Below are positions 24,364 to 29,004 of a stretch of 32,137 nucleotides of DNA, piece by piece. Each line of letters begins with the position of its first letter. Positions within the stretch are counted from its first letter, which is position 1. Under the pieces are notes generated by a model that had not been told where the DNA came from, made no database searches, and saw only the letters and a list, made by a program, of their open reading frames with translations. A program made the translations under genes and the position numbers. The stretch comes from a virus: IMG/VR virus record IMGVR_UViG_3300029319_000263, positions 1 through 32,137 of that record. One strand, 5' to 3'.

Positions 24364-24696
24364 TTAAGATTCCTCCTGAGTAGAAATAAACTCTTCTAAT
24401 TTTGTAATTAGATCGGTTTTGTTTTGTCTTCTATCGAGTTCTATTCCTAACTGACGGCCATAAGTTTCAATTTGTGATTTTGTCATTTGAGAAAAATCAA
24501 CCTTGTCGCTATCGGCATCTTCTGACTCGACTTCTGGTTCTGTACTAGCAGTAGGTGCTTCACAAGTTTCAACAACTAATTCAGCTTTTCCAATAGCTAC
24601 TAAATACTCTCCACTTTGCTGTTCAAGATCAACAATAGAACCAGAGTCCGTAGGGACTCCAGCTATCATTGTTGCTCGTAGCAATTTAAACTTCAT
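24364..24696 (-). CDS. Small head protein with C-terminal HeH/LEM-like domain
   Basis: The start is ATG 24696, one base after the capsid stop, with GGA 7 nt upstream; an upstream in-frame methionine would overlap the capsid gene. The N-terminal ~45 residues (KLLRATMIAGVPTDSGSIVD, then QQSGEYLVAIGKAEL) resemble the small 'K-x-L-x-x-x-x-G-x-x-x-x-x-G-D-x-x-x-x-(D/E)...L-x-x-x-x-A-x-(L/Y)' head proteins common after capsid genes. An acidic, Ser-rich linker (48-75) leads to QIETYGRQLGIELDRRQNKT and a final helix, a helix-extended-loop-helix (HeH/LEM, SAP-like) domain that in other phages may bind DNA or proteins. Function is unknown. Confidence 0.65.
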   Translation of the reverse strand: MKFKLLRATMIAGVPTDSGSIVDLEQQSGEYLVAIGKAELVVETCEAPTASTEPEVESEDADSDKVDFSQMTKSQIETYGRQLGIELDRRQNKTDLITKLEEFISTQEES

Positions 24697-24697
24697 A

Positions 24698-27448
24698 TTA
24701 TGTTCCGAAGCAGAATGCACCTGGTTGCTTAACAGCAAAGTCAACATCTTGTAATGCAATGATTCTTACACTACCTGCTGTTGCATTTGCATATGGATCT
24801 ACAGTTAGATCTAAACCAGACCACATACCAATTACAAACTGTGAGAAGTCTCCAAAGAGAACATCGTTGTTTGCAAGCTGATTAGAAACAATAGCTGGAT
24901 AGCCATTAATTTCATTGTTCTCAAACACGAACTGTGCTGTGTTTGTAGCCTTCTCTGTTGACTTCAATGCACCTCTAGCAGAAGCATTGATTAGGTAGTA
25001 CATATTAGCTACATCAGCGTTAGCTGCTGCAACGTCTGTCTCCATTCCGATGTACTCAGCAAATGTACCAAATGTAGTAATTGTCTGTGTACCTACACCA
25101 GTTGTATCTTTGATACCAAGTGGCTCGTTTGAGCTACCAGAACCATAAATAGCTGCGTTATCTAACTTAGTAGCAATAACCTTTGCAATGTCATCTCTAA
25201 TCATTGCCTCAACATCAATTGAAGATTGAAGAAGAAGTCTTCTAGAGTAATCAACAAATGCACCAACTGTCTTAGGTGTCATGTTGACTTGATCAAAAGC
25301 TTGCTGACTTTCTGTTGGAGAACCCGATTCGCCAACGAAATAAGCGGTGCTGGTTGAGGTCATCCGGGGGATAGATACGTTACCTGACAATCCAGTAAGC
25401 ATTGTTGGATTAGTTGCCATCACAGCCATTCTCTTTCTAAGAATGTCAATGAATGAACCTGCAAGTAATTCTGTTGGAACTAAGTTACCACCAGCTGTTG
25501 CAGTACCTACATTTAAGTCTCTTTTTAAAACTTCGTTAGGAACTAAAATTCCATTTGCAGGTTTCTCATACTTCTTAGAAGCTGCGTCAGATACCTCTCT
25601 CTCAAAAGCTGCTGCTTCTTGAGCTTGGCGATCTGTTGGATTTGCTAGAGCGTTTAATGCTCTTAAGAAAGAGAATCTCTTAATTTCTTTTTGGTCTAAG
25701 CCAACTTCATTAGTTGTCATGTCAGTAGAACGAATGGGTGTATTACGAACCTCTGCCTTGTTTTTAACAAGATCGAGGATAGCTGCTTTTGCTTCTTCGG
25801 GAGTTTTATTTCCCTTTATAAGTGAATCAGCAAGCTGTTCTGCTCCATACTCTCCAAACTCACGACATAACGAAGTGATTGATGCTGTACGAGCATTATT
25901 TTCATCAATAGCACGTTGTACTTCGGCTTTGATGTCGATTTCAACGGCTGGAGCCGTATCAACCGCAGTTTCTTTAGTTGATTCTTCCATGTTTCGGACT
26001 GTTGTTGATGCGGGTTCAACCGCAGAATTAATCTCCTCTGAAGGAGATTCTTGTTCCATACTAATACTATTACCTTGTGAGGGTTCTATCAAACTTCTAC
26101 CAAAACCAATAGTTGGATCAGCTGGAACAGTTACAACTGATAGTTCGTGAACTGACCAGTTGGTGGCTCTCATGCCATCTTCTGCTTCTTCCATATCATT
26201 TATCTGATATCCAAAAGAAATACCTCTTAATATTCCATCCTGGACATCTTGTAATATTTCAGATGCAAACTTATTGCGAGAGAAACGAATCTTTGCATAA
26301 CCACGTTTGGTTTCTGGATCGATTCGAGCTGACTCCACTACCCCAATAGGTTTGTTCATATCATGATTAAACAGAACAGCACCGCCATCATTAAGTCGTG
26401 CTAAATCTGCTGCTCCTTCCTCATGACTTAATATTTCGTTACCAAAATATCTTTTTACAGGATATTCAGAACTAAATGGAAACTCAAATGTTCTTGCTTT
26501 TACGTTTTTGAAGTCCGTAACCTCTTTACGCTCAAACTTATCTCCATTCTCAATCGATCTAATATCGGCAATTTTTGTAAGTGCCGAAAATCGATGACCT
26601 GCATATATATCGGTGGATTCGCCATCTCTATAAACTTGAATCAAAGCAGCAGGGTCATCTGCTGTTCCGTTAATAACAAAAGAACTGCTAGGAACATCAA
26701 TCTGTCCATCTCTTACAATTTTTGTGATCTTACCTCTAGCTCGACCTCCACTAGCATTCCAAGATACAAAATCGCCTGTTTTTAAAGCATCAGGTTCTGC
26801 TCTTTTTTCAACTTTAGTTGTTTCAGCCATAGTTTTTTCGTTAGTAGCAGGTTCAAACTTGATAGGTTCAAACTCGTTTCTCTCAAGCCAAGCTTGTGCT
26901 TCAGAGGCAGAATATTCAGAAAGTCTGAACCTAATTGATTGAAGTTCAGCACCCTCCTCATTATCCTTTATACCAAATATAAAGTCTATGCCTTGGGAGG
27001 CTTCATTGTTAGACCGCCTAAATGTATCATATTCCTCAGAATTTGTAATAGTTGCTGCGTGTTCATTTGGATATGGTCTTGCTAAATCTATAACTTCTCC
27101 TCTTTCTCTTGCCTTTTTAATTTGTGCAGCTTTTTTACGACTCCAACTAAAACCTGCGTCCCCACCCCAAGCTGCCCAAGCCACTCGGCCTTTTGATGGG
27201 TATCCTTTTTCTCCGGGACTAAAACCTTCTGCTTTTTTATCAACTTCATGTCTAGCAAAAAAACTAAACATTCTCACAACAACGTCAGCAGATAACTCAT
27301 TACCACTAATAATCTGTGTAGCTCTTACTGCTGCAACTTGTGTCCCACCTGCCCTACCTTCTTTTTTCCATTCTTTATATCGTCTAGCCTCCGTCTTCAT
27401 CCCATCTGTGGGTTTTAAATTAATCTCTGTGCCACTTACATTTGCCAT
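24698..27448 (-). CDS. Prohead protease-major capsid protein fusion (916 aa)
   Basis: One open frame carries several head functions. Residues 1-115 (RAGGTQVAAVRATQI, FFARHEVDKK, GYPSKGRVAWAAWGGDAG) and 130-200 (HAATITNSEEYDTFRR, IRFRLSEYSASEAQAWL) are N-terminal domains found in phage head proteins. Residues ~222-292 (TGDFVSWNASGGRARGKIT) look like a Tudor-like DUF2945/HVA1 domain. Residues ~310-452 are an HK97-type prohead protease, with H362 (LFNHD), S411 (LRGISFGY) and H434-E435. About 453-590 is an acidic linker that could act as a delta/scaffold segment. From ~640 (LVPTELLAGSFIDILR) to 916 is the HK97-fold major capsid protein. No separate capsid gene exists. Release of the capsid part by self-cleavage in the linker is expected. 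Confidence 0.9.
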   Translation of the reverse strand: MANVSGTEINLKPTDGMKTEARRYKEWKKEGRAGGTQVAAVRATQIISGNELSADVVVRMFSFFARHEVDKKAEGFSPGEKGYPSKGRVAWAAWGGDAGFSWSRKKAAQIKKARERGEVIDLARPYPNEHAATITNSEEYDTFRRSNNEASQGIDFIFGIKDNEEGAELQSIRFRLSEYSASEAQAWLERNEFEPIKFEPATNEKTMAETTKVEKRAEPDALKTGDFVSWNASGGRARGKITKIVRDGQIDVPSSSFVINGTADDPAALIQVYRDGESTDIYAGHRFSALTKIADIRSIENGDKFERKEVTDFKNVKARTFEFPFSSEYPVKRYFGNEILSHEEGAADLARLNDGGAVLFNHDMNKPIGVVESARIDPETKRGYAKIRFSRNKFASEILQDVQDGILRGISFGYQINDMEEAEDGMRATNWSVHELSVVTVPADPTIGFGRSLIEPSQGNSISMEQESPSEEINSAVEPASTTVRNMEESTKETAVDTAPAVEIDIKAEVQRAIDENNARTASITSLCREFGEYGAEQLADSLIKGNKTPEEAKAAILDLVKNKAEVRNTPIRSTDMTTNEVGLDQKEIKRFSFLRALNALANPTDRQAQEAAAFEREVSDAASKKYEKPANGILVPNEVLKRDLNVGTATAGGNLVPTELLAGSFIDILRKRMAVMATNPTMLTGLSGNVSIPRMTSTSTAYFVGESGSPTESQQAFDQVNMTPKTVGAFVDYSRRLLLQSSIDVEAMIRDDIAKVIATKLDNAAIYGSGSSNEPLGIKDTTGVGTQTITTFGTFAEYIGMETDVAAANADVANMYYLINASARGALKSTEKATNTAQFVFENNEINGYPAIVSNQLANNDVLFGDFSQFVIGMWSGLDLTVDPYANATAGSVRIIALQDVDFAVKQPGAFCFGT

Positions 27449-27450
27449 GA

Positions 27451-29004
27451 TTACTCAGCCTTTTTGCGTGTTTTTTTAGATCTATTTGGTGGAGGAGGTG
27501 TAATATTTACATCTCCAGAACCCATCTCTACTTCTAAGTCTAGATCTTTATCTAATGTAACTCCTAAACTATCAGCGACATCTTGTTCTCTTGCGATCTC
27601 AGAAACAATATCGTCATAATCGCCACCATTTGTCTGTGCTATGACTTGTGACTTACTCATATAACCTGCTTGCTCTGCCTCACGATATGCTCTAATTTCC
27701 TTCAATGGATCAACATAATGTTGTGCAGGTGGAGTCCATCTTGGTTTGCAATATCTTTTCGAATTAGCTGTATAGTCAGGAAAGTCTAAATCGCCTGATA
27801 ATACTGATAATGCAAGCCACTCTTTAAATATTCTGAAATGAAAATTATCAATCATATACTTCTGACAGAACTTCCAATGTTCTCTGTCTTCTAACAAACT
27901 AAGTCTTGAACTTGAATAATTAGTCTCAGAAAAATCTTTACTGATAGTTTCAAAGCTACAACCTATACCTGTAGCAAAACGTCTAATTTTATTTTTCACA
28001 AACATCTCATATTGCTGAGATGGATAATCGATATCAGGTATCTGTACTGACTCGTTTGGAGCTAGATATCTAAACTCTCCTGGACTAAAGGATTGTATTC
28101 TTTGATTATTTTGCACCTCATCTCCAATCAGTTCTCCTTGATCATTTTGAATAAATCCCATAATACTTGCACCTGCTCTAGCCCTGATAACAGCAGCTTC
28201 TTCATATCCTTGTAACTGATGCATATCAGCCATCACACTATGAAACCAAGGTACTCCTCTATTTTGTCCAGGCCTTTCGGGTAAGAATAAATGAATAATA
28301 TCTTTTGCATCTATAAAGATATGTAATTTACGATTTGCAGAATAATCAAGATAATATGCATCGCCCGGATGTTTTGTAAGTATTGCATATCTAACAGGTC
28401 TGCCCCACTCATCTACCTCTACTCCGTTTCTCCACTCATTGTTTTTATTTAGTAACTTGTCATCATATTCTTCATCTAACAAATCACTTTCAATCATTTG
28501 CAAAGCAATAGGAACATTAGAATCGCCAAATGGTTTTCTTACGATCCTAAAAATAGCTTCTCCTGATTCGCATAATGCACCTGCTGCTAACCATTCAAAT
28601 TGATGAAAGCTATATTTACCTGCACAATCGCAACTATTAGCTTCTGACCACTCTGCCCATTTTTCTTCTATAAGATTATTTACTCTCTGATCTCTCTTCC
28701 CTCCTCTTTGTTGTAAAACAAGAGATTGAAATTTCATTCCTGTTCCGACAATATTAATTTGTGTTGTTCTTTTAGCTTGTCTTGCATATGGATTATTTCT
28801 TACAAGTTCTCTGGATCTATCTCTTAGCTTACGCAAACTATTCCTAATTTCAGCATCAGCACTTAACTGACTACTCATCCAATCTTGTGTAAGTCTAGAA
28901 ACTAATGCTCCTTGGTATGCTCGAAGACCTTTAAGTGGTTGTGCATTACTGCCAAAACCTAAAACTCTTTTTACTGCATTTGCAATGTTAGATCTAATTC
29001 CCAT
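27451..29004 (-). CDS. B: Portal protein, lambda gpB family (517 aa)
   Basis: 517 residues (lambda gpB 533). The opening region (DWMSSQLSADAEIRNSLRKL, RDRSRELVRNNPYARQAKRT, NIVGTGMKFQS) is the hallmark of the phage_portal_2 family. The middle includes EGEA-type GEAIFRIVRK, YDDIVS, and W-F-H-S-V-M-A-D-M (GVPWFHSVMADMHQLQGYEE), and IGCSFETISKDFSETNYSSS is the family's clip-region motif. A basic Pro-rich tail ends in KKTRKKAE. The portal forms the dodecameric ring through which DNA enters and leaves. Its ATG overlaps the upstream stop by one base (TAATG); its stop is 2 nt before the capsid gene. Confidence 0.93.
   Translation of the reverse strand: MGIRSNIANAVKRVLGFGSNAQPLKGLRAYQGALVSRLTQDWMSSQLSADAEIRNSLRKLRDRSRELVRNNPYARQAKRTTQINIVGTGMKFQSLVLQQRGGKRDQRVNNLIEEKWAEWSEANSCDCAGKYSFHQFEWLAAGALCESGEAIFRIVRKPFGDSNVPIALQMIESDLLDEEYDDKLLNKNNEWRNGVEVDEWGRPVRYAILTKHPGDAYYLDYSANRKLHIFIDAKDIIHLFLPERPGQNRGVPWFHSVMADMHQLQGYEEAAVIRARAGASIMGFIQNDQGELIGDEVQNNQRIQSFSPGEFRYLAPNESVQIPDIDYPSQQYEMFVKNKIRRFATGIGCSFETISKDFSETNYSSSRLSLLEDREHWKFCQKYMIDNFHFRIFKEWLALSVLSGDLDFPDYTANSKRYCKPRWTPPAQHYVDPLKEIRAYREAEQAGYMSKSQVIAQTNGGDYDDIVSEIAREQDVADSLGVTLDKDLDLEVEMGSGDVNITPPPPNRSKKTRKKAE

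Follow-up and report, generated by a model that had tools for sequence, protein, structure and literature searches.

A phage head gene joining accessory modules, protease and coat in one frame, and a probable internal start for its coat protein

A single frame for the head proteins

The DNA analysed here (the window) is a linear virus record of IMG/VR, IMGVR_UViG_3300029319_000263, from a marine phage, with a length of 32137 bases. On its minus strand lies a gene in which a single frame runs through a stack of N-terminal modules (D1, D2 and a Tudor-like domain), an S78-type prohead protease, a delta-like region and an HK97-fold coat. This fused gene, and an internal methionine codon at the junction between its protease and delta parts, are the subject of this work. 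The parts of the gene are listed below with the evidence for each; R4C is a cultured phage with a related fused gene and a deposited shell structure (8gta), and pLDDT is the predicted local distance difference test score of AlphaFold2.

24698..27448, minus strand: fused gene D1-D2-Tudor-protease-delta-coat, 916 amino acids, ATG start, stop-free; the portal gene adjoins
27098..27448, minus strand: D1, helical module, residues 1-117 (AlphaFold2 block with pLDDT 87-96 over 11-110; phrog_2859 over 13-115)
26834..27091, minus strand: D2, residues 120-205 (low AlphaFold2 confidence)
26570..26776, minus strand: predicted Tudor-like beta barrel, residues 225-293 (PF11160 above cut-off; AlphaFold2 block with pLDDT 72-88 over 221-290)
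26090..26506, minus strand: S78 prohead protease, residues 315-453, Pfam 356-445 (Pfam, phrog_617, alignment)
26363..26365, minus strand: His362 codon (invariant in 48/48 aligned rows)
26216..26218, minus strand: Ser411 codon (invariant in 48/48 aligned rows)
25529..25990, minus strand: proposed delta/scaffold region, residues 487 to ~640 (AlphaFold2 helices from 502 in a low-confidence model; downstream boundary placed by alignment with R4C)
24701..25492, minus strand: coat domain, residues 653-916, counterpart of the deposited R4C shell chain (phmmer match to 8gta over 653-910, 1.5e-53)

The initial annotation of this locus had described one uninterrupted frame of 916 codons in five parts, without giving the strand, and both the frame and the parts are borne out by Pfam, phrog_617 and the AlphaFold2 modules. 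Pfam places Phage_capsid (PF05065) at residues 653-915 (1.2e-45), Peptidase_S78 at 356-445 (7e-11) and Hva1_TUDOR (PF11160) at 225-276 (1.1e-6; 29.0 bits against a gathering cut-off of 24.1), while phrog_617, "major head protein", matches residues 315-915 (2e-163). The score against NF045541, the curated family for fusions of this kind, is 170.3 bits (best stretch 315-615), below the curated cut-off of 525, and we therefore file the gene by its architecture and phrog_617 rather than as a member of NF045541. The full-length AlphaFold2 model is of low confidence (mean pLDDT 59.5, predicted template modelling score 0.26). In it, residues 441-511 have a pLDDT below 50 and helices run from residue 502 on (helix 502-530), in keeping with the delta-like linker proposed earlier.

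Conservation of the fusion among relatives

For comparison we used 291 distinct genes carrying both the protease and the coat domain, distinctness being judged on the 900 nt that begin with the protease. Some of these are cut by contig ends, and each collection scan contributed the best 80 of its confirmed relatives (186, 151, 258, at least 595 and 490 in the respective scans). Clade sets were built from distinct DNA with a best BLAST identity of at least 55%; we refer to them as W (the window's own clade), B, C, D (with CRP-811) and E (with CRP-831).

In 290 of the 291 genes a single frame encodes both protease and coat, and neither a stop nor a frame break separates them in the window, as the initial annotation had held. 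The upstream modules likewise keep to the frame of the protease: D1 in 212 of the 216 genes that have it, the Tudor module in 149/150 and D2 in 97/97. The full architecture of the window, D1-D2-Tudor-protease-coat, which it had been suggested should be sought in other contigs, occurs in 57 genes, alongside D1-Tudor-protease-coat (83), protease-coat (63), D1-protease-coat (40), D1-D2-protease-coat (31) and others (17). Within clade W a subset lacks D2, and there D1 is joined to the sequence at Met207. Cultured phages carrying modules of the N-terminal stack include S-CBS1, S-CBS3, CRP-811, CRP-831 and CRP-406, and S-LBS1 and RcCronus have the fusion without the stack. The fusion is thus real, widespread, modular and of a known kind. 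As the joining of protease and coat is already a named kind, what is unusual is the N-terminal stack together with the proposed nested starts discussed below.

The broken frames in L044, L084 (CRP-823), L174, L243 and L283 were considered as natural splits and set aside, as the breaks lie inside modules or linker and may be errors. The intervals concerned are 435-3172 in L044, 2986-5914 in L084, 123-125 in L174, 2831-2958 in L243 and 2368-2370 in L283, with the break inside D1, D2, protease or linker, and at these sites a sequencing error and a natural break look alike.

Protease, coat and phage R4C

His362 and Ser411, previously noted as intact, are invariant throughout the aligned rows. We take them to be the catalytic pair of the putative protease, following the initial annotation and general knowledge of the family.

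A Foldseek search with the coat domain returned 8gta of R4C on top, and the top matches are HK97-fold capsids. The fused gene of R4C encodes 629 amino acids, of which the deposited shell chain comprises residues 362-629, the C-terminal 268; its protease part is seen by Pfam only below cut-off (15.9 bits versus 21). The R4C capsid has 415 copies in a T=7 shell of 66 nm (PMC10276861, text in part). In the part of that paper available, the words "protease" and "cleav" occur 0 times and the passages do not discuss cleavage (PMC10276861). The other 361 residues have probably been cut off rather than being disordered. The deposited chain thus gives some support, though of a less direct kind, to the removal of the parts preceding the coat that was anticipated in the initial annotation.

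A conserved internal methionine under synonymous constraint

Two features mark the junction between protease and delta region:

25988..25990, minus strand: Met487 ATG, proposed internal start of a delta-coat product of 430 amino acids (74/74 in the window's clade set)
25838..26083, minus strand: strong synonymous constraint, 246 nt, codons 456-537 (clade W alignment)

Met487 is invariant in 48 aligned divergent rows (the window and 47 relatives at 29-98% identity), although the linker around it is predicted to be disordered and shows little conservation elsewhere. In the low-confidence full-length model it lies shortly ahead of the predicted delta helices, at the place expected for the start of a stand-alone coat gene. 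An ATG further upstream, at 26059, had been named earlier as a possible start of a scaffold-capsid product. This ATG is real (Met464, 69 nt upstream of Met487), but Met is found there in only 54 of 81 aligned rows, and we rejected it as an internal start.

Synonymous variability drops to 0.10 of the gene mean in windows beginning at codons 487-488 (48 long-type W sequences), the deepest trough of the gene. Low stretches are found at the matching junction in clades B (codons 516-570), C (407-433) and E (520-545), and weakly in D. In the 20 codons that follow the Met, synonymous variability amounts to 0.24 of the gene mean in W, 0.16 in B and 0.31 in C; no contiguous window at least 70 codons away is equally low (W 0/757, B 0/807, C 0/677), nor is any of 20000 random codon sets in each of these clades. 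Disjoint sequence pairs of clade W show a synonymous change of 0.044 in the stretch versus 0.200 elsewhere, and pairs with less synonymous change in the stretch number 35/35 in W, 6/6 in B, 32/35 in C, 35/40 in D and 21/21 in E, for stretches that were selected once the troughs had been seen. Amino-acid change in the stretch versus elsewhere is 0.029 versus 0.043 in W and 0.069 versus 0.076 in B, and is higher in the stretch in C, D and E; the constraint therefore acts on nucleotides and not on the protein alone.

Dual coding was considered as a source of the trough and rejected. Over codons 450-559, frames +1, +2, rc0 and rc2 contain stops in 74/74 rows and rc1 in 64/74, so that no conserved open alternative frame crosses the trough in these 74 rows. 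The additional trough that clades E, B and W show over D2 was likewise set aside as a likely coverage artefact, D2 being covered by 5/44, 8/13 and 47/71 rows, respectively.

The trough might instead belong to some other cis element, a packaging or RNA-stability signal unrelated to a translation start. Its length in W (246 nt) and its beginning upstream of the Met would fit such a signal. However, other clades show a trough at the corresponding protease/delta junction, where a conserved Met likewise stands, and a ribosome-binding sequence precedes this Met in D and E; we therefore consider this explanation very unlikely.

Shine-Dalgarno sequences at internal starts

Two further features of the window bear on the comparison of Shine-Dalgarno (SD) sequences:

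26828..26830, minus strand: Met207, ahead of the Tudor module (counterpart CRP-811 Met130 in clade D, matched by the following sequence)
26033..26038, minus strand: GAGGAG, SD-like, ~42 nt upstream of Met487 (GGAG kept in 70/74; too distant for a normal SD)

The junction Met is preceded by an SD in all 80 rows of clade D (CRP-811 Met404) and all 44 of clade E (CRP-831 Met537). Among the Mets listed, an SD is present throughout at Met404 and Met130 alone in clade D and at Met537 alone in clade E. Met130 has it in 61/61 scored rows with the Met, and the counterpart Met207 in 1/65 rows of the window's clade. Codon 130 of CRP-811 is thus a second internal Met with an SD, at the start of the Tudor module. 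In CRP-831, the Mets at codons 211 and 324 also have SD-like sequences ahead of them; the former begins D2 and the latter a stretch occupying the place of the Tudor module.

The same junction was compared in 18 cultured fusion phages, a set that excludes S-CBS3 and CRP-823, which were not placed, and R4C, which was examined later. The junction ATG is present in all 18, and an SD precedes it in 14/18, versus 21/294 other internal ATGs (Fisher p 8e-12); without AAGG as a permitted motif the counts are 12/18 and 19/294. The p value is descriptive: the sites were chosen from a listing that showed SD energies, and the rows are not independent, as some of the phages are related to one another, in several cases closely (ep3 and Arya belong to one genus). 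Many of these phages also have more than one ATG in the linker and delta region, and the ATG chosen was the one that starts the aligned delta segment. In R4C, examined after the hypothesis was formed, the junction ATG189 has an SD energy of -9.5 kcal/mol, the strongest among the R4C ATGs listed.

On these comparisons of sequences, the fused gene is probably nested, with two or more in-frame starts, yielding mostly delta-coat and a minority of full-length protein. Several observations weigh against this. An SD at normal distance from the junction Met is found in 0/71 rows of W, 0/12 of B and 0/64 of C, and among the cultured phages MQ-4, FoX1, S-LBS1 and S-CBS1 have none at the junction ATG. 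The Met itself is missing from 7/71 rows of clade C. Constraint just after the Met is weak in D and E, where 35/657 and 110/815 windows are as low, and when 15-codon windows are used the minimum of B, D and E is found in another part of the gene (codons 153, 118 and 233, respectively): for B and E in D2, to which only a few rows extend, and for D just before Met130. Finally, the R4C chain is what was modelled, and taken alone is no proof that the remainder is cleaved away. The missing SD in W is tempered by the habits of this genome, since an SD four-mer stands upstream of only 10 of the 27 minus-strand open reading frames (ORFs) taken as genes in the window (4663-31964), leaving 17/27 without, and Met1 of the fused gene itself has an SD in 1/63 sequences of clade W and lacks one in the other 62.

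RNA features in the clades without an SD

In clade W, two hairpins flank Met487:

26009..26024, minus strand: hairpin H1, 34-19 nt before the ATG (five-pair stem TGCGG/CCGCA kept in 70/71; 6-nt loop variable)
25937..25964, minus strand: hairpin H2, after the ATG (a two-sided change at one pair, A-U in 21 and C-G in 13; another pair broken in 3/34)

Consensus folding in W gives 17 pairs, one of them changed on both sides, against none in B. In clade B an invariant 12-pair complementarity encloses the ATG in 10/10 distinct sequences, among which there is no covariation, and an alternative local hairpin (11/12) uses the same arm as this long-range pairing. In clade C, 49/63 have a five-pair hairpin at 42-29 nt ahead of the ATG. 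The 24 nt preceding the junction ATG are poor in G (3-14%). Among 107 positions sampled in C, the region of the ATG shows the least structure, and positions as open or more so number 8/118 in W and 10/103 in D; its openness is not unusual in B (34/126) or E (76/113). When codons of the window sequence were shuffled, local pairing gave a z of -1.5 at codons 461-500 and 481-520, which is not unusual, -3.3 at 441-480 and -4.2 at 401-440, the last of these outside the trough. Because single-sequence folds differ, one arm in B is shared by two pairings and covariation is slight, these features of W, B and C are suggestive of a structured element around Met487 rather than a demonstration of one.

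It is possible, and we put it forward tentatively, that in these three clades a conserved cis-acting RNA element takes the place of the SD, with stems of differing sequence flanking or enclosing a G-poor stretch around the ATG, and that it would govern how much protease-carrying coat is made relative to plain coat. Separate starts might then be retained by several of the modules, at Met1, Met207 and Met487 in the window and at Met130 and Met404 in CRP-811, giving a nested set of at least three coat isoforms in which the coat would act as a delivery vehicle for interior proteins.

The same features could be read differently, with delta-coat made from a separate mRNA that arises at an internal promoter or by an RNase cut at the conserved hairpins. 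Hairpins on both sides of Met487 in W, the invariant pairing around the Met in B and the lack of an SD there in W, B and C are what such a message would lead one to expect. The ordinary SDs of clades D and E, however, would be enough for initiation on the long mRNA, and we regard a separate mRNA as quite unlikely.

N-terminal modules and neighbouring genes

The N-terminal stack was modelled by an AlphaFold2 run on residues 1-330, and a Foldseek search of this model against the PDB found no match at E 0.001 or better. The Tudor-like fold claimed by the initial annotation finds support in the Pfam score above cut-off and in the barrel that the run predicts at ~225-293. The nearest solved structures of the Tudor model are Tudor and NusG/Spt5-type barrels (Z ~6-7), the best being the PHF1 Tudor domain with a Z of 7.1 and 2.2 Å over 55 residues, under the tool's noise mark of 8. 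D1 and D2 were barely tested in the VIA comparison because its matches to the N-terminal model span residues 215-297.

D1 is present in 31 phage records, many of them unnamed or "coil containing"; other names are capsid/head protein, prohead protease, capsid maturation protease and, in a haloarchaeal tailed virus, portal. Its predicted-structure matches in BFVD include portal and prohead protease proteins. Carriers include Haloarcula tailed virus 3 (portal protein) and Halorubrum tailed virus 4 (hypothetical protein) as well as phages of Vibrio, Pseudomonas phage PaBG and actinobacterial phages, so that D1 is a widely shared module. D2 was found in 8 phage records (E 0.001), all within genes of this kind and annotated as major capsid or head protein, and the Tudor module was detected in two. 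As a guess, the modules might bind DNA or the portal in the head.

The portal gene (27451-29004), a gene for head-tail joining and the gene of a GpA-type large terminase lie upstream of the fused gene; head-closure and tail genes follow downstream. The next ORF (24364-24759; phrog_3281 match 6.4e-7) was called from a TTG within the end of the coat gene, and its real start may be an ATG further in.

Nested starts and the stoichiometry of protease and coat

A nested gene would work as follows. Initiation at Met1 would give a minority of full-length chains with accessory modules, protease, delta and coat, while initiation at Met487 would give the bulk product, delta-coat without protease; a start at Met207, ahead of the Tudor module, may add a third, intermediate product. 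As both main products share the coat domain and the delta region, long and short chains would co-assemble in one prohead, the long ones bringing a limited amount of protease and modules inside. The protease would then remove itself, the modules and the delta regions, leaving a shell of coat subunits of ~265-280 residues, whose mature start would be expected near the position corresponding to residues 640-653 of the window protein. We infer the use of Met487, the product ratio, co-assembly, the removal of upstream parts and the cut sites.

HK97 has ~60 copies of protease versus 415 of coat with a 102-residue delta (PMC12749128, text in part). Mature heads measure 64 nm in CRP-822 and 59 nm in CRP-406 (PMC12629253, text in part). 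We estimated packing at 110 Da per residue and 1.21 cubic angstrom per Da, with an inner radius of 22-19 nm assumed for a T=7 prohead. Under this assumption, 415 full-length chains, each with 640 residues to be removed, would take up 79-123% of the interior sphere. A mixture of 60 full and 355 short chains would take up 28-43%, and delta alone 19-30%.

The initial annotation had supposed that every coat subunit brings its own protease, in a ratio of 1:1. The gene could indeed make full-length chains only, with protease and modules removed by rapid, perhaps co-translational, self-cleavage. One frame in all but one of the genes compared, a Met487 without an SD in the window's clade and an R4C shell chain without upstream residues would all agree with a single product. 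But it leaves the invariant Met, the SDs of relatives at that Met and the synonymous trough unexplained, and 1:1 packing would need ~80-120% of the interior at the assumed radius. On these grounds a single product seems unlikely and the 1:1 ratio is probably wrong, the conserved Met487 probably starting a protease-free coat.

Relation to known systems

Lambda C/Nu3 offers a precedent for the nested gene, as one frame there has an internal start that yields a scaffold-type product sharing the C-terminal part. The window gene differs in that the coat itself belongs to the shared C-terminus, and the lambda protease is of another family than S78. The names C/Nu3 also occur in the product name of Salmonella phage PT1. 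In HK97, protease and coat are two separate genes without accessory modules. The gene order, protease and then delta-coat, and the removal of delta are the same in HK97 (PMC12749128). The fusions of NF045541 and PHROG 617 (ep3, VP882, phiHAP-1, RcCronus, R4C) likewise have an S78-type protease N-terminal to an HK97-fold coat in one frame, and the window gene exceeds them by ~310 N-terminal residues comprising D1, D2 and the Tudor domain. Roseophages CRP-811 and CRP-831 and cyanophages S-CBS1 and S-CBS3 have the same D1 fused to protease-coat, differ in their sets of D2, Tudor and other modules, and in all of them the gene is labelled simply "major capsid protein" or "major head protein".

While protease-coat fusions are already known (NF045541, phrog_617), the proposed nested start appears to be new as far as our literature search reaches. 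An internal start in such fusions is not mentioned in the annotations examined or in the available passages of PMC12629253, PMC12749128, PMC10275583, PMC3185693, PMC10276861 and PMC2771037, and no description of one was recognised among titles and abstract openings of the open-access literature in PubMed Central. In the available main text of the roseophage paper, "protease" and "fusion" have 0 occurrences (PMC12629253).

Given the excess of coat over protease in HK97, protease-coat fusions pose a puzzle of stoichiometry, which a nested internal start, if true, would solve with one gene. Database entries for "major capsid protein" of ~600-970 amino acids would then misdescribe the main product, and the coat, serving as a carrier, would offer a natural way to bring selected modules inside the phage head.

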